Shown: positions 8,514 through 24,032 of the stretch, one piece after another | How the letters are laid out: the number at the start of each line of letters is the position of its first letter | Numbering within the stretch: position 1 is the stretch's first letter | Source: Bradyrhizobium sp. CCBAU 051011 | GTDB lineage: Bacteria > Pseudomonadota > Alphaproteobacteria > Rhizobiales > Xanthobacteraceae | Length of the DNA: 64,000 nucleotides | Reading direction: 5' to 3' | NCBI RefSeq assembly: GCF_009930815.1 | Contig: NZ_CP022222.1 | Coordinates: 5,312,501 to 5,376,500, forward strand | The notes under the pieces: generated by a model | The model's database searches: none | What the model saw: the letters and a program-made list of their open reading frames with translations, nothing else | What the model was told of the DNA's origin: nothing | Program-made: the position numbers and the translations under genes

Positions 8514-8534
8514 GAGCGCGGTGAACGTGGATCG

Positions 8535-9359: not shown

Positions 9360-9423
9360 GAGAAGGGGCCTGCAATGCGGTGCGAGGCGGGCGCCGTCCC
9401 GCCGACCTGCGTGCGTCGGGACG

Positions 9424-10485: not shown

Positions 10486-10787
10486 GTCGTCCTCCAGTCG
10501 GCCTGGCCGATGCTGGCCTGCAAGCGCTTCGATGTCCTGAAATCGCGGCCCGACACAGCGGCTGGATCAACGTCCTACTCGCTCCTCGGCTGCGATGCAA
10601 AGGCGGTACCACTCACATTTTATTAAACGCGCAGCCGATCACAAATTAGAATCCATCGAAAAGGGCTGAAAAATAAGCTCTGGAATAGCGATGCTGCCAT
10701 CATGTATTCGCATCACACCAGCAAGGCTGTTCGTACCAGGACGGGCCGTGTAGGTTCGCTTCAGCTCTACTCCAGCGCGCGGCACAC
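10486..10787. promoter_or_regulatory. Divergent promoter region with candidate iron-response (Irr/ICE-like) element
   Basis: This 300-base gap separates the divergent SIP-type gene and the ABC exporter gene and must hold both promoters. At 10646-10660 it contains TTAGAATCCATCGAA, which matches 13 of 15 bases of the element at 16077-16091 in another siderophore-gene promoter region. The TTAGA...TCTAA design resembles rhizobial iron-control elements bound by Irr. The regulator itself is an inference. Confidence 0.5.
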
Positions 10788-12491: not shown

Positions 12492-12597
12492 AGCTATTTT
12501 ATTCTCGGGAGAAATTTGAATCGAAGTTCATGTTCTTGCGAGATGGATGCCACCGAAAGCGCATGATGTCTCGCGACGCTGTCTTGTCAGATTTGTA

Positions 12598-12649
12598 AGG
12601 AATCTAAACTGCGTGTGGTGGCACTCCTTGTCATCTTGTGCGGGAGTGC
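12598..12649 (+). terminator. Hairpin between exporter and acyltransferase genes
   Basis: GCACTCC (12621-12627) pairs with GGAGTGC (12643-12649) and is followed by TTTAGAT. Just before it, AGATT and AATCT form a 5-base inverted repeat around 12590-12605. This could be a weak terminator or attenuator. There is no long T run, so the call is tentative. Confidence 0.35.
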
Positions 12650-12718
12650 TTTAGATCGCAAGCGCGACTGAAGATCGCGTTTCGTTTTGAGCAATCACGT
12701 TTGCGATGCGAGGGCCGG

Positions 12719-13783: not shown

Positions 13784-13805
13784 GGCCTGAACGGAGCGCG
13801 GCTTC

Positions 13806-15104
13806 ATGTCTCACCAGCTTGCGATCGAGCACGACGTCGTCGGCGTCGGATTCGGGCCTTCCAATCTTGCGCTTGCCATCGCGCTGGACGAATGCGCCAG
13901 AAGGTCACGTCTGAAATGCGCGCCGCTGTTCGTGGAAAAGCAGCCGCATTTCACCTGGCACGGCGGCATGCTGCTGCCGGGCAGCGACATGCAGATCTCA
14001 TTTCTCAAGGATCTGGTTTCGCTGCGCGATCCGACCAGTCCATTCACCTTTGTGAACTATCTGCACAAGCGTGGCCGTTTGCTGGATTTCATCAATTGCC
14101 GGACGTTCTATCCGAGCAGACTGGAGTTCAACGACTATCTCCGGTGGGTCGCCGACCAGTTCAAGTCTCGGGCTGCCTACGGCGAAACCATTGTTGCCGT
14201 CGAGCCGGTGACGGCCGGGCAAACCGTGACGTCCTTGCGGGTTCATTCGCGGACGCTTGCCGGCGGAGAAACTGTGCGGCTTGCAAGGAATCTGGTGATC
14301 GCTGCGGGAGGGCAGCCGTATGTCCCGCAGGTGTTTGCGAAGGCGGCCGGCGATCCCAGATTGTTCCACACCAGCCGCTACCTGGATGCGGTCGAGCGCG
14401 CCGGCCTGGACGGCAGGACAGCGCGCGTGGCCGCGATCGGCGGAGGACAGAGTGCAACCGAAGTGACGGTCGACCTTCACGGCCGTTTCCCGCAGGCACG
14501 CATCGATTTGATCTTTCGCGGCCATGCCTTGAAGCCGTCCGACAGCAGCCCGTTCGTCAACGAGATTTTCAATCCTGATTACACCGACTTCATCCATGCG
14601 CAGTCTGCCGAGCGGCGGGACGCTATCGTTCGCAATTTCCGGAATACGAATTATGCGGTGGTCGATTCCGATCTGCTCGATCAACTATATCGACTGCTCT
14701 ACCAGCAACGTGTTGGCGGCGAGACAAGAGTAGCATTGCATCCGCGTAGCGAAATTACGGATGTGCATGCTACGCCTGAGGGGATCGAGATAAGCCTGGT
14801 CGACAAGTTCGGGAGCGAAAATCGCCGCTCGACCTATGATGCCGTCGTTCTCGCCACCGGATACGACAGAGAAACGCCGCACGCGTTTCTCGCGCCAATT
14901 CAACGCTACATTCGCGACAGCGTGCCGGATCGCAGCTACAGGCTTGTCACCAGTCCGGCGTTTCGGCCGCAAATCCATCTCCAGGGATATTCGGAAGCTT
15001 CGCATGGCCTCAGCGATACGCTGCTCTCAGTTATTGCCGTGCGTTCGCAGGAAATCGCCGAATCGCTGCTTGCGACGATTTCGCGCCGGGAACTCATCGC
15101 CTAA
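13806..15104 (+). CDS. L-lysine/L-ornithine N-monooxygenase (IucD/PvdA family)
   Basis: This 432-residue flavoenzyme begins with the FAD-binding motif GVGFGPSN, has the NADPH-binding motif AIGGGQSATE near the middle, and ends with the ATGYDRETP segment typical of the family. It hydroxylates the side-chain amine of lysine or ornithine using NADPH and O2, the first step of hydroxamate formation. The substrate (lysine or ornithine) cannot be decided by eye. It works with the acyltransferase encoded just upstream, and the product would be loaded by the NRPS. Confidence 0.94.
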   Translation: MSHQLAIEHDVVGVGFGPSNLALAIALDECARRSRLKCAPLFVEKQPHFTWHGGMLLPGSDMQISFLKDLVSLRDPTSPFTFVNYLHKRGRLLDFINCRTFYPSRLEFNDYLRWVADQFKSRAAYGETIVAVEPVTAGQTVTSLRVHSRTLAGGETVRLARNLVIAAGGQPYVPQVFAKAAGDPRLFHTSRYLDAVERAGLDGRTARVAAIGGGQSATEVTVDLHGRFPQARIDLIFRGHALKPSDSSPFVNEIFNPDYTDFIHAQSAERRDAIVRNFRNTNYAVVDSDLLDQLYRLLYQQRVGGETRVALHPRSEITDVHATPEGIEISLVDKFGSENRRSTYDAVVLATGYDRETPHAFLAPIQRYIRDSVPDRSYRLVTSPAFRPQIHLQGYSEASHGLSDTLLSVIAVRSQEIAESLLATISRRELIA

Positions 15105-15190
15105 GTTCGATTGGATAGACAGAGCGGCGTGCGCCAAGGATTTGAAGCGGGCCGCGAGACCGCCTTGTCAAGGAGCCTTGCTTTCGGGTT

Positions 15191-16000
15191 TCAGGGGGCT
15201 GAGGCGATCACGCGCCATTGCGCTGCGGATCCAAGTGCAGCCGGCACGGAGAGCACTGCAGGAGACGAACCCGCATCAACGATCAATGTGTCAGGTGGAA
15301 TCGTGAAACCGACGCCGGCGGCCTTGAGGATTGCCTCCTTGAGCGTCCAGTAGCGAAGGAAGAGGCGAGAGCGCTGAGTTGCGGGGGCTTTCGCCAGCTC
15401 CCGAAGCTCTTCTGCCGCCAGGACGATTTCGCTCATCGCGTCCATATCTGCAATTTGCCGCAGGGGCTCGATATCCACGCCGATCGGCATGTGTGCCACT
15501 GCAGCGGCGACAGCGCCTCTCGCGTGGCTCAGGCTGAAGTCGAGGTCTGCGGGGGCATCAACGAGCACGGGTTTGCCCAGCGCGGATTGTTCGAAGCGCA
15601 ACCCGTCGGCTGCCCGTCCCGCGATGGCTCCGAGCAACAGGCGCGCACCCGCATGCGCGGCGAGATAGCCCATGCGATCCTCGATATGGAGGAAGCGTGC
15701 CAGACGATCGGTCTCGTCGGCATCGAGCACTTGCATGGCTTGCCCGACCCTGAGCGTATCGGGTTCGCCGGCGACCACGTCGCCGGGCGGAGCTACCTTC
15801 GCCAGCCAGAGAACGATCTCTTCCGACTTCAGCCGTCCGATCGGGCGCGCGAAACCTGCATCGTACAGGCATCGCAAGCGTAATTGTTCCCGCTCTGCCG
15901 TGCATTTGACAGCGAGCGACCACACGAGGAAGGCGTTTGCCTGATCGATCGAAAGCGGTGCAGCAAATGGCCCGTGTGCTGCCTTTTGAAAATTCGTCAT
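15191..16000 (-). CDS. 4'-phosphopantetheinyl transferase (Sfp/EntD type)
   Basis: The protein contains the Sfp-type motifs GVDIEPL and RYWTLKEAILKAAG, which bind Mg and CoA, after the LSHARG segment. It would attach the phosphopantetheine arm to the carrier domains of the NRPS and make them active. The ATG at 16000 gives 269 residues; another in-frame ATG at 16060 would add 20 residues lacking family features. The gene faces the hydroxylase gene tail to tail. The palindromic element at 16077-16091 lies immediately upstream, which suggests iron control. Confidence 0.92.
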   Translation of the reverse strand: MTNFQKAAHGPFAAPLSIDQANAFLVWSLAVKCTAEREQLRLRCLYDAGFARPIGRLKSEEIVLWLAKVAPPGDVVAGEPDTLRVGQAMQVLDADETDRLARFLHIEDRMGYLAAHAGARLLLGAIAGRAADGLRFEQSALGKPVLVDAPADLDFSLSHARGAVAAAVAHMPIGVDIEPLRQIADMDAMSEIVLAAEELRELAKAPATQRSRLFLRYWTLKEAILKAAGVGFTIPPDTLIVDAGSSPAVLSVPAALGSAAQWRVIASAP

Positions 16001-16076
16001 GTCAGTTGGCTCGCCGCCTCTGCACAACCATATGCAATCCGCGGGTGTATTGATGCGCACGTGGAGGCGATCTGAC

Positions 16077-16198: not shown

Positions 16199-16786
16199 AT
16201 GACAAAATCCGCCCCTGTCGAGCAATCTATGGAAAGCTATCTGCCGGAGCGGATTGCAACCATACTGGTTGGCAGCCAGCATGCAGGCCTCATCAGCAAG
16301 GAGCCAGCCACGCGCATCGACTACCTGCTCGAGATTGCGTCGCTTCATACCAGGAACGAACTCCTCAGCCACCCGGGCCTGGGACGCGTGGGCGTCCAGC
16401 GGATCGAAAAGTGGATGAGGCTTCATAGCCGGCGCCTTCGCCGCAACGAAGAGAGCCTCGATAGTGTGATCTGCCGATTCGGCTTTCGGCAGGCATTTGC
16501 CGACGCCAGAGCCGGTCGGGCCGGGCCCGTATTGGTGATCTCGCCGGAGTCCAGGGACAAGGTCCTGCGTGGGCTCGGTTCATACGATATGCGCGCCCAA
16601 CAGCCGACAGTTCGCGATGATGGCATTTCGGCGCCATCGAGCATGAAAGCTGAACCCGAGCCGTTCGGAAAATGGCCATCCTTCGTGAGTCAAAACGAAG
16701 ACAGCCTCAAAATTTGTTGGCCCCCGATCTTCACGCCGCCGACAGCGGTCGATCGACTGAATAGCTGTGTCATTGGAACATATTAG
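16199..16786 (+). CDS. Hypothetical protein with RNA polymerase alpha-CTD-like helix-hairpin segment
   Basis: The 195-residue product is not assigned to a named family. Residues ~38-75 (TRNELLSHPGLGRVGVQRIEKW) follow the pattern of the alpha subunit C-terminal domain, in which a helix is followed by a hairpin of the type LLxxPNFGKKSLxEI that contacts DNA. The C-terminal third is low-complexity and Pro/Ser-rich. I took the ATG at 16199 because the upstream frame (from 16112) crosses the promoter region. It is divergent from the phosphopantetheinyl transferase gene and shares its palindromic element. A regulatory role is only a suggestion. Confidence 0.6.
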   Translation: MTKSAPVEQSMESYLPERIATILVGSQHAGLISKEPATRIDYLLEIASLHTRNELLSHPGLGRVGVQRIEKWMRLHSRRLRRNEESLDSVICRFGFRQAFADARAGRAGPVLVISPESRDKVLRGLGSYDMRAQQPTVRDDGISAPSSMKAEPEPFGKWPSFVSQNEDSLKICWPPIFTPPTAVDRLNSCVIGTY

Positions 16787-17140
16787 CAGCGAGAAACTTT
16801 CGTTAAGCACTGCCGGCGGCGGAGCGCTCGTTGCAAAATAGTTTACCGATTGCTCTTGACGGATTTGCAAATCTCTGTGCATACCGCTGCCCCACAAAAC
16901 GCCGTCGAACTCGCCGGCGCTCTTTAAGGACCGAAACCGTGTTGCGATTGCGCTCACATATCGTCGCGAATGCCGCCCCCGCGCTGCCGTTTATCCGGTC
17001 GTGCGATTGGTCGCGCATGTCCGTGACGGAACACGGTCCACGCTATCTGACGAAGCCCGACAATCTCGGGACCAGCAGGATAGCAGGCAGAGCGTAACAG
17101 GCAGCGGGAATCCCCCTCTGCCAATCAGGCGGAGGGCAAC
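16787..17140. other. Intergenic region before the tRNA array
   Basis: I see no convincing gene in these 354 bases. The last bases carry the GGAGGG ribosome binding site of the following small gene. Confidence 0.5.
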
Positions 17141-17341
17141 ATGGCCCGCAACAGCACCACCAAGACAGGACTCGAGAACCGTACCCGCGAGAAGATTTTC
17201 TCCTCGCCGGTCGCGCTCGCCTTCGTGCGCACCGTTGTGGCGCTGCGAGGGATCTCCGAGACCGAAGCCCGCCAGATTTATCTCGACTACATCAACCGAT
17301 CGCGGTCGGCGGGTAACCGCGGCCGCCGCGTGATGACGTGA
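17141..17341 (+). CDS. Small hypothetical protein at the head of the tRNA array (66 aa)
   Basis: The ATG is preceded by GGAGGG at optimal spacing, as are the other two protein genes embedded in the tRNA array. The product is basic and helical, with no family I recognise. A central SPVALAFVRTVVALRG segment and a charged ISETEARQIYLDYINRS segment are the main features. It lies 150 bases before the first tRNA, on the same strand, and may belong to the same mobile or inherited unit. Confidence 0.65.
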   Translation: MARNSTTKTGLENRTREKIFSSPVALAFVRTVVALRGISETEARQIYLDYINRSRSAGNRGRRVMT

Positions 17342-17456
17342 AGTGATTTCCGAATACAGGATGGTCGCCCCTGCAAGGACATAAGGCGATCCGCTGACCG
17401 GTACCGGTCTCCTTCAGTGGAGCGGCAAACGGTGGTTTCAGGCAGCGATTACTTTT

Positions 17457-17480
17457 GGCCGGGCATCCCCCGGCCGTTTG
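17457..17480 (+). terminator. GC-rich hairpin just before the first tRNA
   Basis: GGCCGGG (17457-17463) pairs with CCCGGCC (17469-17475) across a 5-base loop, followed by GTTTGT. It could end the upstream transcript or mark the start of the array. Confidence 0.5.
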
Positions 17481-17490
17481 TAGATTTCAC

Positions 17491-17565
17491 GCCGGCGTAG
17501 CACAGCGGAAGTGCAGGGCTTTTGTAAAGCCAAGGTCGGGAGTTCGATCCTCTCCGCCGGCACCA
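17491..17565 (+). tRNA. tRNA-Thr(UGU)
   Basis: Acceptor GCCGGCG pairs with CGCCGGC, then A and encoded CCA. Anticodon loop TTTGTAA gives UGU. The first anticodon-stem pair is mismatched. T-loop TTCGATC is canonical. It is the first tRNA of the array. Confidence 0.88.
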
Positions 17566-17569
17566 TTTC

Positions 17570-17646
17570 GCTCCACTAGCCCAACTGGTAGAGGCGACGG
17601 ACTTAGATTCCGTGCGGTGGCGGTTCGAATCCGTCGTGGAGCACCA
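17570..17646 (+). tRNA. tRNA-Leu(UAG) with a short variable loop
   Basis: Acceptor GCTCCAC/GTGGAGC, anticodon stem ACGGA/TCCGT, loop CTTAGAT (anticodon UAG), T-loop TTCGAAT. The D-arm is Leu-like, but only five bases (GCGGT) lie between anticodon and T stems, so the long variable arm expected of a leucine tRNA is missing. Confidence 0.85.
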
Positions 17647-17686
17647 AACATTGCAATTCCATTGCATAGGCAATGACTCGACAAAT

Positions 17687-17763
17687 GTCCGTGTAGCCCA
17701 ATCGGTAGAGGCGGCGCTTTCAAACGGCGCGCGATCGCGGTTCGAATCCGTGCACGGACACCA
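17687..17763 (+). tRNA. tRNA-Leu(CAA) with a short variable loop
   Basis: Acceptor GTCCGTG/CACGGAC, discriminator A, CCA encoded. Loop TTCAAAC gives anticodon CAA. The variable region is five bases (GCGAT), again lacking the leucine long arm. T-loop TTCGAAT is canonical. Confidence 0.82.
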
Positions 17764-17766
17764 AGC

Positions 17767-17841
17767 GCGCGCTTAGCTCAGCGGTAGAGCGCCTGTCTTA
17801 CACACAGGATGTCGGCCGTTCGATCCGGTCAGCGCGTACCA
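17767..17841 (+). tRNA. tRNA-Val(UAC)
   Basis: Acceptor GCGCGCT/AGCGCGT, anticodon stem CCTGT/ACAGG, loop CTTACAC (UAC), D-arm and T-arm (TTCGATC) near canonical. CCA is encoded. Confidence 0.92.
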
Positions 17842-17845
17842 ACTC

Positions 17846-17921
17846 GCGTCCGTAGCTCATTCAGGAGAGCGCCGCTGTGACATGGCGGAGGCGGCAGGGG
17901 CAGAGCCTGCCGGACGCACCA
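17846..17921 (+). tRNA. tRNA-Val(GAC) with abnormal T-loop
   Basis: Acceptor GCGTCCG/CGGACGC and D-arm are good. Loop GTGACAT gives GAC. The T-stem GCAGG/CCTGC closes a loop GGCAGAG, which lacks the usual TTC-R-A residues. The T-arm core is therefore non-canonical. Confidence 0.78.
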
Positions 17922-17928
17922 TCAATTC

Positions 17929-18002
17929 CCTCTCGTAGCTCAGTGGTAGAGCAATCGCTTGATAAGCGATCGACGGATGTTCGATTCATCACGGGAGGAC
18001 CA
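17929..18002 (+). tRNA. tRNA-Ile(GAU)
   Basis: Acceptor CCTCTCG/CGGGAGG, anticodon stem ATCGC/GCGAT, loop TTGATAA (GAU), T-loop TTCGATT. CCA is encoded. The outermost T-stem pair is mismatched. Confidence 0.87.
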
Positions 18003-18020
18003 AACAGCCAGGAGGTCACC

Positions 18021-18179
18021 ATGAGCGAGAACTTACCTGCCGGCGTGCACCGTCTCTCCGCCGAGAGCCAGCTCGCGCTTGCCCGATCAAAGGCGAGGGG
18101 CGACGCCATCATGGCGCGTCACGCGAAACCGGAGCGGCTGGCCGCCGCGACCATCAAGACAATGGATCCGGAGCGTTAA
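18021..18179 (+). CDS. 52-residue hypothetical protein inside the tRNA array
   Basis: A strong AGGAGGT site five bases before the ATG supports translation. The product is short and basic, starts MSENLPAGVHRLSAESQLAL and ends TMDPER. It has no recognised family. Its last codons and stop overlap the 5' acceptor strand of the next tRNA (18164 onward), so gene and tRNA have evolved as one packed unit. Its role in the array is unknown. Confidence 0.7.
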   Translation: MSENLPAGVHRLSAESQLALARSKARGDAIMARHAKPERLAAATIKTMDPER

Positions 18180-18246
18180 ACCTGAATGGAGATGGAGCGG
18201 ACTTTTAACCCGTGCGCAAGTGGTTCGAAACCACCCGGATCCTCCA
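18164..18246 (+). tRNA. tRNA-Lys(UUU)-like, degenerate
   Basis: Acceptor GGATCCG/CGGATCC with discriminator T and encoded CCA. Loop CTTTTAA gives UUU. The anticodon stem GCGGA/CCCGT has an A-C mismatch next to the loop. The D region is about seven bases longer than normal and folds poorly. T-loop TTCGAAA is near canonical. The 5' end lies within the preceding protein gene. Confidence 0.68.
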
Positions 18247-18250
18247 TCAC

Positions 18251-18334
18251 GGACCTGTGCCCCCAGCGGCTAAGGGAGCGGATTCTTAATCCGTCGCGAA
18301 AGCATCGTCGGTTCGAGTCCGACCAGGTCCTCCA
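18251..18334 (+). tRNA. tRNA-Lys(CUU) anticodon on a long-variable-arm (Tyr-like) body
   Basis: Acceptor GGACCTG/CAGGTCC, discriminator T, CCA. Loop TTCTTAA gives CUU. The 12-base variable arm (CGCGAAAGCATC) and the D-arm CCCCCAGCGGCTAAGGGAGC are like class II tRNAs, especially tRNA-Tyr. Normal tRNA-Lys is class I. Confidence 0.8.
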
Positions 18335-18345
18335 ACTGAATTTTC

Positions 18346-18428
18346 GCGCTCGTGGCGAAACTGGTAGACGCGCCGTCTTGAGAGGGCGGTGGGAGACCAT
18401 GTCGGTTCGATCCCGGCCGAGCGCACCA
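18346..18428 (+). tRNA. tRNA-Leu(GAG)
   Basis: Acceptor GCGCTCG/CGAGCGC, Leu-type D-arm (GTGGCGAAACTGGTAGACGC), loop TTGAGAG (GAG). A proper variable hairpin TGG-GAGA-CCA is present, and the T-loop is TTCGATC. This is the only Leu in the array with a class II arm. Confidence 0.9.
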
Positions 18429-18443
18429 ATTGCCCAACCAATT

Positions 18444-18518
18444 GCCCATGTCCCCATCTGGCGAAGGGACCGGACTGTCGATCCGGGAAGGCGAGTTCGA
18501 TCCTCGTCATGGGCGCCA
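18444..18518 (+). tRNA. tRNA-Asp(GUC)
   Basis: Acceptor GCCCATG/CATGGGC with discriminator G as expected for Asp. Anticodon stem CCGGA/TCCGG, loop CTGTCGA (GUC), T-loop TTCGATC, CCA encoded. Confidence 0.9.
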
Positions 18519-18522
18519 ATTC

Positions 18523-18601
18523 CAGGATGTAGCTTAGCCCGGCTAAAGCGCACGCCTCGGGCGCGTGAGACCCGCAGGTTCAAATCCTGCCATCCTGACC
18601 A
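18523..18601 (+). tRNA. tRNA-Pro(CGG)
   Basis: Acceptor CAGGATG/CATCCTG starts with C as is usual for Pro. Anticodon stem CACGC/GCGTG, loop CTCGGGC (CGG), T-arm GCAGG-TTCAAAT-CCTGC. CCA encoded. Confidence 0.92.
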
Positions 18602-18605
18602 CTTC

Positions 18606-18680
18606 GGGCGTCTAGCTCAACGGTAGAGCCGGCTGCTCATAACAGTCCACGTATCGGTTCAAATCCGGTGGCGCCCACCA
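18606..18680 (+). tRNA. tRNA with CAU anticodon (Met elongator or Ile2)
   Basis: Acceptor GGGCGTC/GGCGCCC, loop CTCATAA (CAU). The 1-72 pair is G-C, so it is not an initiator. It could be elongator Met or, after lysidine modification, an AUA-reading Ile tRNA. Confidence 0.85.
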
Positions 18681-18699
18681 CCAAAGAGAGGAGAGGGCA

Positions 18700-19236
18700 A
18701 TGTTCGCAGCAAATCCCTCCCTTGTCCTCAACGCCGACTTCCAGCCGCTCAGCTATTTCCCGCTGTCGCTGTTCAACTGGGAGGATGCCGTCAAGGCGGT
18801 CGTGAAGGGATCGCATGTCGTCGTCGCAGAATACGAACAGCTTGTCCGCAGCCCGTCGACGGTGATGCGGCTGCCGTCGGTCATCGCGCTGCGCGAGTAC
18901 GTGCGGCCGCCGTCTCGAGTAGCCTTCACCCGGTTCAACGTCTTCCTCCGCGATCGCTTCCGTTGCCAGTATTGCGGCGACCAGCACCTCCGCGGCGAAC
19001 TGACGTTCGACCACGTTATCTCGCGAGTAAACGGCGGCCAGACGTCGTGGACAAACATCGTGGCGGCTTGCAGTCCCTGCAACACGCGCAAGGGCCGCTT
19101 CTACCTGAAGCCGCTGCGGGAGCCGTTCGAGCCGACGCAGTACGACTTGATGGCAGCCCAGCGTCTGTTCCCGCCGAACTTTCTGCACGAGACCTGGCGC
19201 GACTATCTGTACTGGGACGTCGAGCTCGAGAAGTAA
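18700..19236 (+). CDS. HNH endonuclease embedded in the tRNA array
   Basis: This 178-residue protein has a C-terminal HNH domain: CQYCG zinc knuckle, LTFDHVISR with the catalytic His, NIVAACSPCNTRKG with the second zinc pair and metal-binding residues. The ~90 residues before it (LVLNADFQPLSYFPLS) match a common bacterial HNH family. A purine-rich GAGGAGAGG site precedes the ATG. It sits between tRNA-Met(CAU) and tRNA-Arg(CCG), on the same strand. HNH enzymes often travel with phage or mobile DNA, so it may have spread or maintained the array; it could also be a housekeeping member of the family. A nuclease action on DNA is expected. Confidence 0.93.
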   Translation: MFAANPSLVLNADFQPLSYFPLSLFNWEDAVKAVVKGSHVVVAEYEQLVRSPSTVMRLPSVIALREYVRPPSRVAFTRFNVFLRDRFRCQYCGDQHLRGELTFDHVISRVNGGQTSWTNIVAACSPCNTRKGRFYLKPLREPFEPTQYDLMAAQRLFPPNFLHETWRDYLYWDVELEK

Positions 19237-19239
19237 CGG

Positions 19240-19267
19240 CGCCGGCGGCGAGTTTCTTCCGCCGGCG
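19240..19267 (+). terminator. GC-rich hairpin after the HNH gene
   Basis: CGCCGGCGG (19240-19248) pairs with CCGCCGGCG (19259-19267) around a 10-base loop, starting 4 bases after the stop codon. There is no T tract, so termination is uncertain; it may be a processing hairpin before the next tRNA. Confidence 0.5.
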
Positions 19268-19272
19268 TCCAT

Positions 19273-19348
19273 CACCACGTAGCTCAACTGGACGAGCACG
19301 ACCCTCCGAAGGTCGAGGATGTAGGTTCGAGTCCTATCGTGGTGGCCA
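19273..19348 (+). tRNA. tRNA-Arg(CCG)
   Basis: Acceptor CACCACG/CGTGGTG, discriminator G, anticodon stem CGACC/GGTCG, loop CTCCGAA (CCG), T-loop TTCGAGT, CCA encoded. Confidence 0.92.
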
Positions 19349-19439
19349 AATTTTGATGCCCGACAAGCGGGAGGCCCGCGCTCTTAAGCGGGAAACTTGA
19401 AACGGCCGTGCCCGCGGCGATAGCCGATGGTGCTGCCCT

Positions 19440-19530
19440 GGATGACGAACCGGACAAGCGTGCCGGCGCTGCCTTGAAAACAGACGGGCGCCGCGAGGCG
19501 TTGCGGTGCAAGTCCGCCGTCACTCCGCCA
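19440..19530 (+). tRNA. tRNA-Ser(UGA)-like, degenerate
   Basis: It shares layout with the next Ser tRNA (GA-ACCGG...CCGGC D-arm). Loop CTTGAAA gives UGA. Variable hairpin GCGCC-GCGA-GGCGT is strong. The anticodon stem keeps three pairs, the T-loop is TGCAAGT, and the acceptor (GGATGAC with GTCA-C-TCC) needs a bulged C. Confidence 0.62.
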
Positions 19531-19533
19531 TTT

Positions 19534-19619
19534 GGACAGTGAACCGGCGCGCCGCCGGCCTCGATTGGAAATCGAGTGGGCGCTTCGGCGCTGGGGATCA
19601 GGGCCTCCGCTGTCCGCCA
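19534..19619 (+). tRNA. tRNA-Ser(GGA) with abnormal T-loop
   Basis: Acceptor GGACAGT/GCTGTCC, discriminator G, perfect anticodon stem CTCGA/TCGAG with loop TTGGAAA (GGA), variable hairpin GCGC-TTCG-GCGC. The T-loop is ATCAGGG instead of TTCRANY. Confidence 0.8.
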
Positions 19620-20679
19620 CCTAGATGTGAGCTTTCAGGAGGTTGTCCATCCAGTCCTGAACGAGGAAGCTGAAGTTGTCGAAGCTTTAGCCAATCCCCG
19701 GAGGACCGAATGGACACCCATAAGAATGCGCCTCTGACGCCGAAAGGTCGAGAGGCCATGGTGCGGAGCGTGATCGAGGGCGGCCTGACGAAGGCCGCAG
19801 CCGCGCTCCGGTTCAACGTCACAGCGAAGACGGTCGCCAAATGGGTCAAGCGCTCCCGGGAGGAAGGTGTTGATGGGTTGCGTGATCGCTCCTCACGGCC
19901 CCATTCATTGCCAGGCCAAACCCTGCCTGCCACATGCGCTGCGGTCGAGGCGCTGCGCCGACAGCGCCACACGGGCAAGCAGATCGCGGCCGAACTCGGC
20001 ATCTCTCCGGCGACTGTCAGTCGTGTCCTGCGGCGACTGGGATTGAACCGGTTGCGCGACCTGGAACCGGCCGAACCGGTGCGGCGCTACGAGCGTGAAC
20101 ATCCCGGCGAACTGATCCACATCGACATCAAAAAGCTCGGCAAGTTCAACCAGGTAGGCCATCGCATCACCGGCGATCGAACCGGTCAGAGCAACCTGCG
20201 TACCCGCGGCGAAGGGCCTGGCTGGGAATACGTCCACGTCTGTATCGACGATGCTTCCCGGATCGCCTTCAGCAAGGTCATGAAGAGCGAACGGCAGGGT
20301 TGCGCCGTGGCCTTCCTCAAAGCTGCGATCGCTTACTACGCCAGCCTGGACGTCAGGGTCGAGCGGGTGATGACCGACAACGGTTCTTGCTATAAATCGC
20401 GCGCCTTCCGCAAAGCCTGCCAGCGCCTCGGCCTCAAGCACATTCGCACCAAGCCATACACGCCGAAGACCAACGGTAAGGCCGAACGCTTCATTCAGAC
20501 CAGCTTGCGCGAGTGGGCTTATGCCCGCGCCTACAACACCTCAGGAGAACGCGCCGCCGAACTGCCAAGATGGCTTCACCGCTACAATTGGCATCGCCCT
20601 CATGGCAGTATCGGCGCGATGCCACCCATCAGCAGACTCGCTCTAACCGGGAACAACCTGTTGAGGCTCCACACCTAGA
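19620..20679 (+). mobile_element. IS481-family insertion sequence with 6-bp CTAG-centred target duplication
   Basis: The element runs from 19626 (TGTGAGCTTTCAGGAGGTTG) to 20673 (ending CTCCACA); the reverse complement of the right end, TGTGGAGCCTCAACAGGTTG, gives imperfect ~24-base terminal inverted repeats. CCTAGA flanks it at 19620-19625 and 20674-20679. IS481 members are known to duplicate NCTAGN targets. It inserted right after the CCA of tRNA-Ser(GGA). Confidence 0.93.
19710..20678 (+). CDS. IS481-family transposase
   Basis: This 322-residue DDE transposase has an N-terminal helix-turn-helix (TKAAAALRFNVTAKTVAKW), a second HTH (AAELGISPATVSRVLRRLG), and an integrase core with HIDIKKLGKF (first Asp), VMTDNGSCYKS (second Asp) and NGKAERFIQT (Glu). 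The open frame is intact, so the element may still be active. The TAG stop (20676-20678) is formed by the target duplication outside the IS end. The gene is co-oriented with the tRNAs it interrupts. Confidence 0.95.
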   Translation: MDTHKNAPLTPKGREAMVRSVIEGGLTKAAAALRFNVTAKTVAKWVKRSREEGVDGLRDRSSRPHSLPGQTLPATCAAVEALRRQRHTGKQIAAELGISPATVSRVLRRLGLNRLRDLEPAEPVRRYEREHPGELIHIDIKKLGKFNQVGHRITGDRTGQSNLRTRGEGPGWEYVHVCIDDASRIAFSKVMKSERQGCAVAFLKAAIAYYASLDVRVERVMTDNGSCYKSRAFRKACQRLGLKHIRTKPYTPKTNGKAERFIQTSLREWAYARAYNTSGERAAELPRWLHRYNWHRPHGSIGAMPPISRLALTGNNLLRLHT

Positions 20680-20774
20680 GCATGATCCGGATCCGAAGGG
20701 CCGCGTCAGCGCAAAGTGGACACCGGTTTTCCCTCGCGACAAACGCGGAACGCGTTTGCGCGGAGATCATGCTC
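20678..20774. repeat. Long palindromic repeat bounded by GAGCATGATC / GATCATGCTC
   Basis: GAGCATGATC (20678-20687) and GATCATGCTC (20765-20774) are perfect inverted ends; AGTGGACACCGGTTTTCC lies inside. From memory this matches a common intergenic palindrome family of Bradyrhizobium-type genomes. Confidence 0.7.
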
Positions 20775-20826
20775 AAACAAAAAGACAGATTGGGATGACG
20801 ATTCGAAGAAGCGGCACCCCAATCTT

Positions 20827-20914
20827 GGAGAGTCAACCGGACAGGCGCGCCGGCACGGCTTCGAACACCGATGGCACCGAAAGGTGTGAGGCTCAGGTCC
20901 TCGGCTCTCCGCCA
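20827..20914 (+). tRNA. tRNA-Ser(CGA) with abnormal T-loop
   Basis: Acceptor GGAGAGT/GCTCTCC, discriminator G, Ser-type D-arm ACCGG...CCGGC, loop TTCGAAC (CGA), variable hairpin CACC-GAAA-GGTG. The anticodon stem keeps three central pairs, and the T-loop is CTCAGGT, not TTCRANY. Confidence 0.75.
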
Positions 20915-20979
20915 TCAACGATCGCGCCAGGCCGGATGTACGCCGGCGCCGCTGAGGAGTTGCAGCCTCGGCATTATTT

Positions 20980-21064
20980 CGCGGGATGACCGGAGCGGTA
21001 ACCAGGCCCCCGGCCGTGGCTCATAACCACGAGACGCGCGTTCGATTAGCGCTCCCGCCAACCA
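20980..21064 (+). tRNA. tRNA-Met(CAU), initiator-like acceptor, enlarged D region
   Basis: Perfect anticodon stem CGTGG/CCACG, loop CTCATAA (CAU). The ends CGCGGGA and TCCCGC...AACCA recall initiator tRNA (CGCGGGG...CCCCGCAACCA), with an unpaired first base and one extra 3' base. The D region is about eight bases longer than normal. T-loop TTCGATT. Confidence 0.7.
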
Positions 21065-21068
21065 ATCC

Positions 21069-21153
21069 GGGTAACGCCAAGTCTGGGGACTGAGCGGGCC
21101 TGTAAAGCCTGCGCCTTTGTGCCTGCCTGGTTCGATTCCAGGGTTACCCACCA
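21069..21153 (+). tRNA. tRNA-Tyr(GUA)
   Basis: Acceptor GGGTAAC/GTTACCC, anticodon stem CGGGC/GCCTG, loop CTGTAAA (GUA), long variable arm, T-arm CCTGG-TTCGATT-CCAGG, CCA encoded. Confidence 0.9.
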
Positions 21154-21162
21154 CGCATCATT

Positions 21163-21236
21163 GCGGACGTAGCTGGAAGGTCGAGCACCTGAGTGCCACT
21201 CAGGAGAATCGGTTTCGATTACCGACGTCCGCGCCA
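21163..21236 (+). tRNA. tRNA-Gly(GCC)
   Basis: Acceptor GCGGACG/CGTCCGC, anticodon stem CCTGA/TCAGG, loop GTGCCAC (GCC), T-arm TCGGT-TTCGATT-ACCGA. Discriminator is G, unusual for Gly. Confidence 0.87.
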
Positions 21237-21240
21237 TCTA

Positions 21241-21316
21241 GCCCAGTTAGCAAATCTGGTGATTGCACGCGCCTGAAGAGCGCAGGAGGCCAGTTCAAAT
21301 CTGGCGCTGGGCACCA
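21241..21316 (+). tRNA. tRNA-Phe(GAA)
   Basis: Acceptor GCCCAGT/GCTGGGC, D-arm GCAA/TTGC, four-pair anticodon stem with loop CTGAAGA (GAA), T-loop TTCAAAT, CCA encoded. Confidence 0.88.
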
Positions 21317-21320
21317 TTTC

Positions 21321-21392
21321 GGGGCAAGCAGCGGGCTGCAGTTGATCCTTGCAAGATCGACGTCCGGAGTTCGACTCTCCGTTGCTCCACCA
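21321..21392 (+). tRNA. tRNA-Ala(UGC), keeps the G3-U70 identity pair
   Basis: Acceptor GGGGCAA/TTGCTCC contains a G3-T70 pair, the known alanine identity element. Loop CTTGCAA gives UGC. The D-arm is short (GCAG-CGGG-CTGC). T-arm CGGAG-TTCGACT-CTCCG is canonical. Confidence 0.88.
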
Positions 21393-21398
21393 TCTCGT

Positions 21399-21474
21399 TC
21401 CCGTCGAGCCATCTCGGTGAAGGCGCTCCGCTGTTAACGGAGGAAGGCACGTTCGAATCGTGCGGCGGGAGCCA
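21399..21474 (+). tRNA. tRNA-Asn(GUU)
   Basis: Acceptor TCCCGTC/GGCGGGA with discriminator G, anticodon stem CTCCG/CGGAG, loop CTGTTAA (GUU), T-loop TTCGAAT, CCA encoded. Confidence 0.92.
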
Positions 21475-21554
21475 ATGCACCACTTCCGATCTCGGGCCTG
21501 ACTTAGGACGCCGAAACGGAAACGGCCGCCATTGTAAGTCGAAAAAATGGACAT

Positions 21555-21629
21555 GCTGCCATCGTCTAGCGGCAAGGATGCCCGGTTCTCAGCCGGTCGA
21601 CGCGGGTTCGAGTCCCGCTGGCAGTGCCA
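21555..21629 (+). tRNA. tRNA-Glu(CUC)
   Basis: Acceptor GCTGCCA/TGGCAGT, Glu-like D-arm (TCGTCTAGCGGCAAGGAT), loop TTCTCAG (CUC), T-arm GCGGG-TTCGAGT-CCCGC, discriminator G, CCA encoded. Confidence 0.9.
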
Positions 21630-21636
21630 TAATCAT

Positions 21637-21713
21637 CTTCCCGTAGCTCAACTGGATGAGCAGCGCGCTACGAACGCGAAGGTATGCAGGTTCGAGTCCT
21701 GCCGGGAAGGCCA
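21637..21713 (+). tRNA. tRNA-Arg(ACG)
   Basis: Acceptor CTTCCCG/CGGGAAG, loop CTACGAA (ACG, the A normally deaminated to inosine), T-arm GCAGG-TTCGAGT-CCTGC, discriminator G, CCA encoded. Confidence 0.9.
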
Positions 21714-21720
21714 ATCTCTC

Positions 21721-21795
21721 CTGGGTAAAGCTCGTGTGGAAGAGCACCGCGTTTGGGCCGCGGAGGCGCGTGGTCGGAGCACGCTGCCCAGACCA
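21721..21795 (+). tRNA. tRNA-Pro(UGG) with abnormal T-loop
   Basis: Acceptor CTGGGTA/TGCCCAG, perfect anticodon stem CCGCG/CGCGG, loop TTTGGGC (UGG). T-stem GCGTG/CACGC is perfect, but its loop is GTCGGAG, losing the T54-A58 pair. Confidence 0.82.
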
Positions 21796-21799
21796 TCAT

Positions 21800-21873
21800 C
21801 GCGCGCTGGCCGATCGGCTAGGCAGCGGACTCTGAATCCGCTCAGACAGGTTCGACTCCTGTGCGCGCAGCCA
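21800..21873 (+). tRNA. tRNA-Gln(CUG)
   Basis: Gln-like D-arm, anticodon stem GCGGA/TCCGC, loop CTCTGAA (CUG), T-arm ACAGG-TTCGACT-CCTGT, discriminator G. The first acceptor pair is a C-A mismatch (CGCGCGC/GCGCGCA). Confidence 0.87.
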
Positions 21874-21877
21874 ATTT

Positions 21878-21952
21878 GGCCCCGTGGCGAAACAGGAACG
21901 CGGCGGTCTGCAAAACCGCTATGAGCCGGGGCAGCACCGGCCGGGGCTTCCA
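21878..21952 (+). tRNA. tRNA-Cys(GCA) with abnormal T-loop
   Basis: Acceptor GGCCCCG/CGGGGCT, discriminator T as expected for Cys, anticodon stem GCGGT/ACCGC, loop CTGCAAA (GCA). T-stem GCCGG/CCGGC closes GGCAGCA, similar to the odd T-loop of tRNA-Val(GAC). Confidence 0.82.
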
Positions 21953-21956
21953 GCAT

Positions 21957-22032
21957 GCGCTCGTGGACCAACTGGATGGTCAGCCGTCTTCTAAACGGCC
22001 CTATGCTGGTTCGAGTCCAGTCGAGCGCGCCA
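21957..22032 (+). tRNA. tRNA-Arg(UCU)
   Basis: Acceptor GCGCTCG/CGAGCGC, D-stem GACC/GGTC, anticodon stem GCCGT/ACGGC, loop CTTCTAA (UCU), T-arm CTGG-TTCGAGT-CCAG, discriminator G. Confidence 0.92.
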
Positions 22033-22046
22033 TCATCATGTGAGTT

Positions 22047-22133
22047 GGAGAGTTGGCCGAGCGGTAAGGCAACGCGGTGCTAACGCGTCGAGTCCTTCGG
22101 GACGCACAGGTTCGATCCCTGTACTCTCCGCCA
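22047..22133 (+). tRNA. tRNA-Ser(GCU)
   Basis: Acceptor GGAGAGT/ACTCTCC, anticodon stem ACGCG/CGCGT, loop GTGCTAA (GCU), variable hairpin GTCC-TTCG-GGAC, T-arm ACAGG-TTCGATC-CCTGT, discriminator G. The best preserved Ser tRNA of the array. Confidence 0.93.
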
Positions 22134-22183
22134 TCACGCCAACCCCGGTAGGCGAACCCATCCGCGATCGATCGGATCTTCCT

Positions 22184-22259
22184 GCGGGCGTGGCGTAGTG
22201 GGCTGCGCGCCTGTCTTCCAAACAGGAGGTGTTCGGTTCGATCCCGACCGCCCGCACCA
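22184..22259 (+). tRNA. tRNA-Gly(UCC)
   Basis: Acceptor GCGGGCG/CGCCCGC, anticodon stem CCTGT/ACAGG, loop CTTCCAA (UCC), T-arm TCGG-TTCGATC-CCGA, CCA encoded. Confidence 0.92.
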
Positions 22260-22260
22260 A

Positions 22261-22337
22261 CCTGCCATCGCCTGGTGCCAAGGGTACGGCGCTTTCAACG
22301 CTGGACTTCGCGGGTTGAACTCCCGTTGGCAGGACCA
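22261..22337 (+). tRNA. tRNA-Glu(UUC)
   Basis: Acceptor CCTGCCA/TGGCAGG, loop CTTTCAA (UUC), anticodon stem CGGCG/CGCTG. T-loop TTGAACT has G in place of the invariant C56. CCA encoded. Confidence 0.85.
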
Positions 22338-22344
22338 GATTCAT

Positions 22345-22414
22345 GAGCGCGTCGCCGAGCTGGGCAAGGCGCCGGATTTTGATTCCGGTGGTTCGAGTCC
22401 TGCCGCGCTTGCCA
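22345..22414 (+). tRNA. tRNA-Gln(UUG), shortened
   Basis: Acceptor GAGCGCG/CGCGCTT, perfect anticodon stem CCGGA/TCCGG, loop TTTTGAT (UUG). No bases are left for a variable loop, and the T-stem keeps two or three pairs around TTCGAGT, as if six to seven bases were deleted. Confidence 0.7.
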
Positions 22415-22420
22415 ATTCCT

Positions 22421-22493
22421 CGCGGGGCCTCGGTAGGGAAGGGGCCGGCTCATAAGGCTGGAGTGGCGGGTTCGACCCCCGTACCCGCGACCA
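22421..22493 (+). tRNA. tRNA with CAU anticodon, weak anticodon stem
   Basis: Acceptor CGCGGGG/ACCCGCG and T-arm GCGGG-TTCGACC-CCCGT are good. CTCATAA is present, but flanking bases pair only as GGCC/GGCT around a nine-base loop. It may be Met or Ile2 type, or decayed. Confidence 0.65.
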
Positions 22494-22604
22494 TTTCCGG
22501 CAGTTCGGGGCTGGCTTGACCCGTTGTGTCCGCTGATCACCAACGGCTCGACTTGCTCGTCATCCAGCCGCCGCCGACTACGAGATAGTGGCCATTCAAT
22601 CTCT

Positions 22605-22679
22605 CCTGATTTCGTTCAATGGCAGGACGCTCGGTTGTGGACCGGGAGACGCGGAGTTCGATTCTCCCAGTCAGGACCA
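22605..22679 (+). tRNA. tRNA-His(GUG)
   Basis: Acceptor CCTGATT/AGTCAGG, anticodon stem CTCGG/CCGGG, loop TTGTGGA (GUG), T-loop TTCGATT. Discriminator is A, whereas bacterial tRNA-His usually has C pairing with an extra 5' G. Confidence 0.83.
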
Positions 22680-22682
22680 GAT

Positions 22683-22756
22683 GCCGGTTTAGTTCAGTGG
22701 TAGAACGCGGGCCTCCAAAACCCGATTCGACTGTTCGATTCAGTCAGCCGGTGCCA
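22683..22756 (+). tRNA. tRNA-Trp(CCA)
   Basis: Acceptor GCCGGTT/AGCCGGT, discriminator G as for Trp, loop CTCCAAA (CCA), anticodon stem CGGGC/ACCCG with one C-A mismatch, T-loop TTCGATT. Last clear tRNA of the array. Confidence 0.87.
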
Positions 22757-22904
22757 ACTTCTTCTCGTGCCCTGGCGGTCCGCTCGTGCGGTATGCAGCG
22801 CGCGGCCGTGCCGCGGTATGAAGTTTGCGCTCCACAATCTTGCTTTTCTGCGCAATCGCGCGCCCGATGCCGAGCATAGCGAACTGACCTGCCTTCGTGT
22901 CGCC

Positions 22905-22980
22905 GGTGGGGCAGGGGGCTTCTATTCAGAGTAAGGGCGAAAAATGCTGACGTCGGGGTTCGAGTCGCTCCCCTGCTACG
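22905..22980 (+). repeat. GC-rich tRNA-like element, copy A
   Basis: GGCAGGGG (from 22910) can pair with CCCCTGCT near 22970-22977, and a TTCGAGTC segment lies inside. A diverged copy occurs at 55387-55464 in the same orientation, sharing GGGGCAGGGG, TTCAG, CTGA, TCGAGTCGC and GCTAC. It could be a decayed tRNA or structured RNA. Confidence 0.45.
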
Positions 22981-23054
22981 ACGCGAGTTCCCCGGTGGCG
23001 TGAGGTGTCTGGCTGTAGCGCCCTTCCGCTACCAAAGCTGCGGTTGTCCGGCGC

Positions 23055-24032
23055 TCAGGGCACCTTGATCCCGGCGCGCTCGATCACACGCGCGTACCCT
23101 GCACGCTCCTTAGCGAGCGCTTCGGCGTAGGCCGGACCGGGCAGTTCGGTCTGAAGTACACCAAACTTTTCGAGTGCGGTGCGGACCTCGGGGATCTTGC
23201 CGACCGCGACCAGCTCTTCAATGAGCTTCTTCACGATGTCGGGCGGTATGTTGGCGGGGCCGACCCAGCCGAATGCCGGCATCAGTTCGAAGCCCGGTAG
23301 GGTCGCGGCGGTCGGCTCGATCTCCTTGGCGAGCGGATAGGGCCCAGGCGACGTGATCGAGACGGCACGCAGTTTGCCGGCTTTCACCTGCTCGTATGCC
23401 ACGGCGAAGTTGTCGCAGGCGAGCCGGATCTGACCACCAATCAGATCCTGGATGCTGAGGTTTGATGCGCGGTAGGTGACGGCCGTCATCTTGAGCCCCG
23501 CGGCGTCCTCCAGCATCGCGCCGCAGATATGCTGCGTCGTGCCGGGGCCAGATGTCGCATACGGCGTCTCCGGGTTCGCCTTCAGCCAGGCGATCAGCTC
23601 CGCCATGGTGTTGGCGGGGACGGACGGGTTGACGAGCCAGATGTTCGGCTGCGCCGCCATGCCATAGAGGTAGGTGAAGTCTTTCTCGACGTTGTAGGGG
23701 ATCTTGTCCTTGATCAGTATCGGATTGATGGCGATTCCACCGGAGGTGGCTACCGCAACGGTGTAGCCGTCCGGCGCCGCGCGCGTCGTCGCGTGCAGGC
23801 CGTTGACCCCGCCCGCGCCGGGCCTGTTCTCGACGACGAACTGCTGGCCGAGCCGCCTCGTCAGTTGCTCTGCAAAAATGCGCGCCATGACGTCCGTGTT
23901 GCCGCCCGCGGCGAACGGCACGATGACAGTCACGGGCCTCGATGGCCACTTTTCTTGCGCCGTCGCAGCGCCAGTGAGCAAGCCAAGCGTCACGGCCACC
24001 ACGGCGAGCCTTGCGAGAATACGGGACGGCAT
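23055..24032 (-). CDS. Tripartite tricarboxylate transporter substrate-binding protein (Bug/TctC family)
   Basis: The 325-residue protein has a signal peptide (LARLAVVAVTLGLLTGAATAQ) and then the Bug-family features: WPSRPVTVIVPFAAGGNTDVMAR, FVVENRPGAGG, and a late GWVGPANIP segment. It captures small carboxylates or similar solutes in the periplasm. I chose the ATG at 24032, which has GGAGAACGAA before it and begins the signal peptide. The membrane components TctA/TctB are not nearby, as is common for orphan Bug proteins. The ligand is unknown. Confidence 0.92.
   Translation of the reverse strand: MPSRILARLAVVAVTLGLLTGAATAQEKWPSRPVTVIVPFAAGGNTDVMARIFAEQLTRRLGQQFVVENRPGAGGVNGLHATTRAAPDGYTVAVATSGGIAINPILIKDKIPYNVEKDFTYLYGMAAQPNIWLVNPSVPANTMAELIAWLKANPETPYATSGPGTTQHICGAMLEDAAGLKMTAVTYRASNLSIQDLIGGQIRLACDNFAVAYEQVKAGKLRAVSITSPGPYPLAKEIEPTAATLPGFELMPAFGWVGPANIPPDIVKKLIEELVAVGKIPEVRTALEKFGVLQTELPGPAYAEALAKERAGYARVIERAGIKVP

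Follow-up and report, generated by a model that had tools for sequence, protein, structure and literature searches.

A stretch of 64,000 nucleotides from the single-contig genome (9,099,371 bases) of Bradyrhizobium sp. CCBAU 051011 (NZ_CP022222.1, positions 5,312,501 to 5,376,500), here called the window and numbered from its first base, carries a dense array of 35 tRNA-like genes at 17491-22756. The unit is longer than the array, a cassette of about 16852-22823 that opens with a promoter-like site, two small open reading frames (ORFs), orfA and orf66, a conserved structured RNA, and a GC-rich hairpin, and that has a gene for an HNH endonuclease embedded among its tRNAs. We favor, tentatively and at a little short of an even chance, the reading of a mobile phage anti-defense tRNA cassette that large Bradyrhizobium phages also carry and that the host has retained on its chromosome as an RNA-gated translation reserve.

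The original prediction, made from the letters alone, had described 35 tRNA genes with 33 different anticodons on a single strand, and this count was reproduced by a combination of ARAGORN, Rfam, a custom structural scanner, and reading by eye. ARAGORN called 25 tRNA genes, all on the + strand, as are the others; Rfam contributed Val(GAC), Cys(GCA), and Gln(UUG), to make 28, five more came from the structural scan, and Ser(UGA) (∼19437-19527) and Ser(CGA) (20829-20916) were added by eye. CCA is encoded in all 33 genes seen by the scanner and was counted so for the set of 35, as had been claimed, and 23 of the 33 gaps among 34 genes (Ser(UGA) being outside the count) measure 3-16 bases, in line with the spacing first reported. 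Coverage of all 20 amino acids holds at the level of the anticodon, and not beyond it. The 25 ARAGORN genes in 5.27 kb (4.7 per kb) already exceed the two thresholds of a tRNA array unit, at least 20 tRNA genes and at least 2 per kb (the definition of Tran et al., as cited in the available text of PMC5966550). The window array is therefore a tRNA array unit with an embedded HNH gene, a known kind.

Ten of the 35 genes escaped ARAGORN, so some members of the set have unusual structures, and the scanner scores need care. Four block-shuffled copies of the region gave two matches, with a top score of 13.8, and reverse-strand decoys scored up to 18.3. The weak calls, Ser(GGA) at 16.8, Ala(UGC) at 17.9, the CAU gene at 20987 at 14.4, and the slot at 22343 at 13.2, thus draw their support from Rfam or from being conserved and collinear in relatives instead of from score. 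The scanner misreads the last of these as Arg(CCG), where Rfam gives Gln(UUG). A Ser(UGA) gene (scores 16-23) is present in seven of eight expanded arrays, which are those of six IMG/VR contigs and two genomes.

The original prediction hinged on the genome having other tRNA genes, and it does: outside the window there are 50 Rfam tRNA matches, 44 of them well formed, with 42 anticodons. Identity between array genes and same-anticodon core tRNAs is 53-84% (median, 65%; 30 compared), the lowest value belonging to the misread slot at 22343, and duplication of core genes as the source of the array was rejected on best core matches of 60-84%. The anticodon loop differs from that of the same-anticodon core tRNA in 17 of 29 comparable genes and is identical in 12. 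Of the 33 array anticodons, 31 also occur in the visible core; the exceptions are GAU and UGC, and core Ile(GAU) and Ala(UGC) are expected in the rRNA operon, which is masked in this genome (reads N). The array thus brings no demonstrable extra decoding ability. Leu(UAA) is indeed missing from it, as first noted, but the core carries Leu(UAA), and the omission is unimportant. The three CAU tRNAs of the prediction are all present, with less certainty as to their forms: the gene at 18606, whose nearest core tRNA is L046 (77%), is taken as Ile2; that at 20987 is degraded and stands in an initiator slot, where the tRNA of phage contig L138 is 92% identical to the initiator-like core tRNA L053; and that at 22421 has a CAU or a shifted anticodon. 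These comparisons make it very improbable that the extra tRNAs serve to raise translation capacity for particular codons or for growth. Every isotype is present by anticodon, as such a role would ask, but the set is foreign, is found in only 26 of 251 genus genomes, and is redundant with the core, and rare codons stay rare in 13 window ORFs (UUA, for example, 5 of 7,147 codons). We rejected codon compensation as the main role on the last two grounds; a foreign, redundant, selectively maintained set with phage relatives fits a reserve or anti-nuclease function better.

An alignment search with the HNH protein (178 amino acids [aa]; 18700-19236, + strand; Pfam PF01844/PF14279) matched eight IMG/VR contigs, six of which (L138-L143) carry an array collinear with that of the window. 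These six share with the window cassette the tRNA order, the HNH gene, orf66, and orf52, a small ORF within the array (18021-18179, + strand) that is 78.8% identical in L138. Their arrays hold 28-31 ARAGORN tRNAs over 9.6-11.9 kb of the stretch compared, with genes interspersed. Two of the six were annotated: one encodes terminase, major head, tape-measure, and tail proteins, and the other tape-measure, tail, and endolysin proteins. Neither the INPHARED phage records nor the PLSDB plasmids gave a match to 16852-17490. We found no sign of a prophage still surrounding the array: 1,037 ORFs of the two phage contigs (at least 60 aa, all frames) had no match in the 140 kb around the window array apart from the cassette, a test that covers those two phages. 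Given contigs with virion genes on the one hand and the absence of other matches to them on the other, the chromosomal copies look like cassettes that were kept after loss of the phage or that moved out of it.

The distribution of the cassette was examined in 251 Bradyrhizobium genomes of at least 90% completeness. The block common to strains with differing neighbors runs from ∼16852 (16691-16760 in near relatives) to 22760-22823, and the cassette is found at different chromosomal sites. In the window its left neighbors are siderophore-type genes, and the same genes adjoin it in G142, G001, and G024; to its right lies a TctC-type gene, on which side the G142 and G001 matches stop at 22823. orf66 is present in 37 genomes, 26 of which have at least eight array tRNAs. 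The RNA element is found in 26 of the 37, 25 of them with at least eight tRNAs behind it and one (G228) with none; among the 11 orf66 genomes that lack the element, G171 has 19 tRNAs, four have one, and six have none. The association between RNA element and tRNAs is tight (Fisher P = 3e-7, kinship ignored). In 35 of the 37 genomes, among them all 11 that lack the RNA element, the HNH gene is no more than 9 kb from orf66, and 10 genomes with one tRNA or none retain the orf66-HNH pair, which indicates that something besides the tRNAs is also selected. In strain BTAi1 and other Bradyrhizobium strains (L086-L089, L130, L204, L214-L217, L219, L220, and L222-L224), orf66 precedes the HNH gene, the RNA element is absent, and not more than one tRNA is present (Asp in L130).

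This constancy of the HNH gene, together with the variety of chromosomal sites, is what would be expected if HNH, with orf66, acted as a homing-type endonuclease to spread or protect the locus, with the tRNAs as cargo or target. A precedent exists in the phage homing endonuclease SegB, which amplifies a tRNA-Tyr segment according to the available text of PMC13096335. Such a selfish element leaves the conservation of tRNAs and RNA element on chromosomes unexplained, and we consider it quite unlikely.

That conservation was measured against two relatives with the same left neighbors as this genome (L075 and L076, in that order below), in gap-free blocks (≥20 columns, ≥70% identity). tRNAs differ at 41 of 2,260 (1.8%) and 51 of 2,408 (2.1%) sites, and spacers at 66 of 687 (9.6%) and 71 of 523 (13.6%). 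When all columns were used instead of blocks, the values were 6.8 and 3.9% for tRNAs and 18.9 and 19.5% for spacers; two further relatives that lack many of the tRNAs (L077 and L078) gave 5.5 and 7.8% against 16.7 and 19.0%. Stem changes relative to L076 keep the pair in 20 of 22 cases. Relative to L075, the pair is kept in 35 cases and broken in 36, with 5 staying unpaired, an outcome that we attribute to misaligned blocks. The ratio of nonsynonymous to synonymous substitution rates (dN/dS) is 0.11-0.12 for HNH against the same two relatives (dS, 0.17-0.19), and for orf52 it is 0.31 against L076 and 0.21 against L075. Judged by these substitution patterns, chromosomal copies of the array are under purifying selection. 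There are also hints that the tRNAs change faster in phages and are restrained on chromosomes. For pairs matched by HNH divergence (0.04-0.165), the tRNA/HNH ratio is 0.47 in compact, that is chromosomal, arrays (55 pairs) and 1.07 in expanded arrays (14 pairs), the pairs not being independent; over all pairs the contrast is small (0.87 for 113 compact versus 1.02 for 28 expanded pairs).

The same data bear on whether the array is old prophage debris that decays without a present role. In favor of decay are the 10 genes that ARAGORN missed, the insertion sequence (IS) and repeat insertions in the window copy, the reduction of arrays to 8-13 tRNAs in 8 of 26 carriers, and their disappearance from 11 of the 37 orf66 genomes, four of which keep one tRNA. 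Debris would not be expected, however, to have tRNAs five to six times more conserved than their spacers, the odd ones included (no differences at 83 sites of Lys(UUU) or at 72 of Ala(UGC)), an HNH gene with so low a dN/dS, and an RNA element that retains its pairs. We think decay unlikely.

The leader contains several conserved features, all on the + strand. A promoter-like site at 16855-16884 (CTTGACG, a 17-base spacer, and GCATA) has boxes that are invariant in 25 aligned cassettes. It is followed by orfA (16939-17097; 52 aa, GTG start), whose frame is open in the 25 aligned loci, with start and stop kept in 25 of 25 at 48-52 aa, and which had no Pfam match up to an E value of 10. An earlier view of the first 290 bases as a pure RNA leader was dropped because of this open frame. 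A hairpin at 17114-17136 (CCCTCTGCC/GGCGGAGGG) covers the likely ribosome-binding site of orf66, and one of its pairs varies as T-G, T-A, or C-G (alignment A4). orf66 itself (17141-17341; 66 aa) belongs to an unassigned family with 297 homologues; its predicted structure has three helices (mean predicted local distance difference test score, 77), with weak IHF/HU-like pieces only, and a fold search gave no match at E ≤ 0.001. Its constraint is weak, with dN/dS of 0.42-0.71 among near relatives.

The structured RNA element (17363-17447; ∼85 bases), identified by covariation, is followed by a GC-rich, attenuator-like hairpin (17457-17487) that consists of a stem at 17457-17475 plus GTTTGTAGATTT before the first tRNA; a promoter possibly overlaps this hairpin. 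In 26 sequences, 35 pairs are present, with 99.0% of cells paired and two-sided changes at 11 pairs; the hairpin (helix 6 of alignment A3) has three pairs with compensatory change. None of 500 shuffles scored as high, and shifting the partners lowered pairing to 29-57%. The structure was derived from the alignment on which it is scored, and the sequences are related, so that this is strong rather than independent proof. A single-sequence fold of the element favors a different structure, with ordinary stability (z = -1.2). A3 draws on 26 of the 27 sources searched (L085 gave no match) and A4 on 25; L196 and L197 were omitted from both. No Rfam family matches the element, either in the window or in six loci that carry it, and the Rfam T-box model gave no match at E ≤ 1 in 17200-23100. 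A model of the element (R1), built from most of the loci that it later finds, matched only the genome itself among 387 genomes of the class, few of them from this genus; within the genus it gave a strong match in 26 of 251 genomes and weak matches alone (26-32 bits) in six. A second, weak match was found in G071, G142, and G001. In G001, which already has a full cassette, contig 159 carries a diverged second orf66 and RNA element (47 bits) at ∼47.4-47.7 kb (L197), with no tRNAs called beside them and without the conserved promoter boxes.

In the reserve that we propose, transcription would start at the promoter-like site and run through orfA, orf66, the structured RNA, and the GC-rich hairpin into the tRNAs; the first tRNA begins 15 bases past the hairpin stem, so the array transcript probably passes all four. 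The RNA element and hairpin would gate read-through, allowing little of it normally and more when translation fails under stress or infection, and the tight association of RNA element and tRNAs makes a gate the simplest model. The array tRNAs might then supplement the core set in translation, and their altered anticodon loops and elbows could make them less easily damaged by tRNA-targeting defenses or toxins. In a phage the set would sustain phage translation; on the chromosome it would have been domesticated as a reserve.

Several observations weigh against this proposal. It depends on inferred steps, from the direction in which the cassette moved to its transcription and gating, the charging of the tRNAs, their resistance to damage, and their benefit. 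The promoter-like site did not pass a strict sigma-70 scan, nor did the GC-rich hairpin pass a terminator scan. orf66 has dN/dS of 0.63-0.71 against its nearest relatives, the orf66-HNH pair outlasts the tRNAs in the 10 genomes mentioned above, and G228 keeps the RNA element with neither a called tRNA nor HNH. The window copy contains an IS insertion and several odd tRNAs, and masking of the rRNA operon hides the core Ile(GAU) and Ala(UGC) with which the array would be compared. The original prediction of a backup set against anticodon nucleases or other toxins gains from the foreign and redundant character of the set, its phage relatives, and its selective maintenance; it does not gain from a resident nuclease of the PrrC/RloC type. 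AAA_13 proteins of this type (E ≤ 1e-20) occur in 20 of the 251 genus genomes but were not found in this one, and they are not enriched in array carriers (1 of the 26 genomes with at least eight array tRNAs). We therefore rejected a link between array and PrrC/RloC, and nothing in the pattern points to a resident PrrC/RloC-type nuclease against which the array would guard.

Some of the tRNAs are unusual in the elbow. A GGYRG-type T-loop, together with a full T stem, occurs in five isotypes (Val, Cys, Phe, Ile, and His); among 389 distinct array tRNAs in 31 loci, 25 have it (filter: score of at least 22, CCA, at most one mismatch). All 25 have CAG or GAG in the D-loop, against 52 of 349 tRNAs with canonical T-loops, and the usual GG is present in 14 of the 25, against 346 of the 349. 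All 42 core tRNAs examined have the canonical T-loop, and a background control of 225,604 bases, both strands, gave no GGYRG match. Two GGYRG tRNAs are in the window, Val(GAC) and Cys(GCA); several arrays have a related loop in their Ala(UGC), and the isotypes that bear GGYRG vary between arrays. Elsewhere the class was absent from roseophage DSS3_MAL1 (0 of 18), L144 (0 of 14), L145 (0 of 2), and, for strict calls only, Mycobacterium avium plasmid pS2b (0 of 4), and it was found once in the 13 tRNAs of Mesorhizobium phage Cp1R7A-A1 (L234), in which five tRNAs have ATCGA or ATCAT as the T-loop and one has GGCGG. Formation of T54 and Ψ55 needs U54 and U55. Judged from their letters, GGYRG tRNAs have neither base and should therefore be unable to receive these modifications and should escape elbow-dependent recognition. 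Among the open-licence literature matches listed, no report of such T-loops was found; synthetic tRNAs with altered D/T-loop contacts do function as suppressors, according to the available text of PMC6337575.

Such loops raise the question of whether part of the array serves outside ribosomal translation, as aminoacyl-tRNA donor or decoy. The occurrence of GGYRG in five isotypes with a matching D-loop change would suit that role, above all for the tRNAs with noncanonical T-loops, but the anticodon arms are kept, the isotypes concerned differ between arrays, and no tRNA-using enzyme was seen among the cassette ORFs, which makes it most improbable. A bolder version of the translation reserve, which we regard as unlikely, is a phage-derived operon with a new leader RNA gate whose tRNAs, including a new elbow type (GGYRG in place of UUCRA, plus AG in the D-loop, recurring in five isotypes or more), were rebuilt for use when ordinary tRNAs are attacked.

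The cassette was compared with systems described in the literature, as far as the available portions of the papers cited go. Closest are the plasmid, phage, and chromosomal arrays of Mycobacterium (PMC5966550, PMC12803027), which likewise have at least 20 tRNAs at at least 2 per kb, an embedded HNH gene, anticodons redundant with the chromosome, and tRNAs unlike the core, and which are mobile; the HNH protein of M. avium plasmid pS2b is 38% identical to that of the window. A structured RNA of ∼430 nucleotides (nt) occurs in ∼81% of the Mycobacterium arrays of PMC5966550. The present array differs in its host phylum, its 85-nt upstream RNA and hairpin without Rfam match, orfA and orf66, and its GGYRG T-loops; the words "T-loop" and "promoter" are absent from the main texts of the two papers in the portions available. 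The trn operon of Anabaena PCC 7120 (26 genes) is normally silent, is induced by translation-targeting antibiotics, and lowers resistance when deleted, but it is megaplasmid-borne and controlled by a repressor, TrcR, and the available text does not mention a leader RNA (PMC10272220). Phage tRNAs have been proposed to evade tRNA-cleaving defenses (PMC10264068), and phage tRNA sets (PMC10264068, PMC11555353, PMC12409363), with anticodon-loop changes in the first of these, resemble the window array, which differs in being a chromosomal, selectively kept copy for which no nuclease was identified. In tRNA-dependent lysogeny a phage tRNA likewise matters to the lysogen, but there a single tRNA replaces a host tRNA broken by integration, and here the visible core is intact (PMC10865867). 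The Acidithiobacillus arrays (PMC5468388) are also horizontally acquired, that of A. ferrooxidans lying in a putative integrative and conjugative element, as cited there; unlike them, the window array has phage relatives and a leader. GOLLD and ROOL RNAs are structured RNAs that adjoin phage tRNA islands, but the two are represented by profiles in Rfam and GOLLD is often longer than 800 nt, whereas the window element is small and has no Rfam match (PMC12286853). No paper on tRNA arrays or clusters in Bradyrhizobium was found in the open-licence literature. As far as these searches go, the Bradyrhizobium array family, the leader RNA with orfA and orf66, the GGYRG tRNAs, and purifying selection on chromosomal copies are new.

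This cassette bears on the purpose of phage and plasmid tRNA arrays. One genus holds three states of it, an expanded phage-type array, a compact chromosomal array under purifying selection, and orf66 paired with HNH beside no more than a single tRNA, which opens its parts to comparison and to deletion one at a time. The leader RNA is a point of entry into when these arrays are turned on, and the GGYRG tRNAs probe how far the near-universal elbow can change in a conserved tRNA.

The individual genes of the array, all on the + strand, are as follows. Called by both ARAGORN and Rfam were Thr(UGU) at 17491-17565, Leu(UAG) at 17570-17646, Leu(CAA) at 17687-17763, Val(UAC) at 17767-17841, Ile(GAU) at 17929-18002, Leu(GAG) at 18346-18428, Asp(GUC) at 18444-18518, Pro(CGG) at 18523-18601, the Ile2-like CAU gene at 18606-18680, Arg(CCG) at 19273-19348, Gly(GCC) at 21163-21236, Phe(GAA) at 21241-21316, Glu(CUC) at 21555-21629, Arg(ACG) at 21637-21713, Gln(CUG) at 21800-21873, Arg(UCU) at 21957-22032, Ser(GCU) at 22047-22133, Gly(UCC) at 22184-22259, His(GUG) at 22605-22679, and Trp(CCA) at 22683-22756; Lys(CUU) at 18251-18334, with a 12-base variable region, was called by both and by the scanner. 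Tyr(GUA) at 21069-21153, Asn(GUU) at 21399-21474, and Glu(UUC) at 22261-22337 were called by ARAGORN, and Pro(UGG) at 21721-21795 (T-loop GTCGGAG) by ARAGORN and the scanner. Rfam identified Val(GAC) at 17846-17921 (41.2 bits, also seen by the scanner; T-loop GGCAGAG), Cys(GCA) at 21878-21952 (41.4 bits; T-loop GGCAGCA), and Gln(UUG) at 22345-22414 (35 bits), which has a shortened variable/T region. The scanner found Lys(UUU) at 18164-18246, with an enlarged D-arm, Ala(UGC) at 21321-21392, with a reduced D-arm, and the tRNA-like gene with a CAU or shifted anticodon at 22421-22493, none of which differs in L075 or L076 (0 of 83, 72, and 73 sites, respectively), as well as the degraded CAU gene in the initiator slot at 20987-21064 and Ser(GGA) at 19534-19619 (T-loop ATCAGGG), the latter backed by conservation in relatives. 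Ser(UGA) is degraded, and Ser(CGA) has the T-loop CTCAGGT. Lys(UUU) overlaps the end of orf52, which may explain its enlarged D-arm.

An IS481-family element at 19626-20673 (+ strand; transposase frame 19710-20678) separates Ser(GGA) from Ser(CGA), which are directly adjacent in L031 and L186. It is a later insertion, with a 6-bp target duplication (CCTAGA at 19620-19625 and 20674-20679), and is absent from all five relatives examined. Comparison with relatives also delimited a palindromic repeat at 20680-20821 (no strand assigned), which we take to be REP-like; it occurs without the IS in L029 and in part in L030, and is absent from L031, L186, and L190.

Beyond the last called tRNA, 22901-22985 is a degenerate tRNA-like stretch (GCAGGGG ... 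GGTTCGAGTC ... CCCCTGC). The siderophore-type cluster at 81-16060 comprises genes for a nonribosomal peptide synthetase, FecCD, ATP-binding cassette transporters, a lysine/ornithine monooxygenase, a GNAT protein, and a phosphopantetheinyl transferase. The six odd tRNA-like matches beyond the 44 well-formed core genes include those at 5923453-5923592 (G000:C1), 3434006-3434078, 2265710-2265806, 8425300-8425372, and 4137510-4137563. Within the window, a lone low-scoring tRNA-Arg(CCG) (43.9 bits) lies at 43830-43906 on the - strand, in addition to the core Arg(CCG), and is possibly an old attachment site or a pseudogene.

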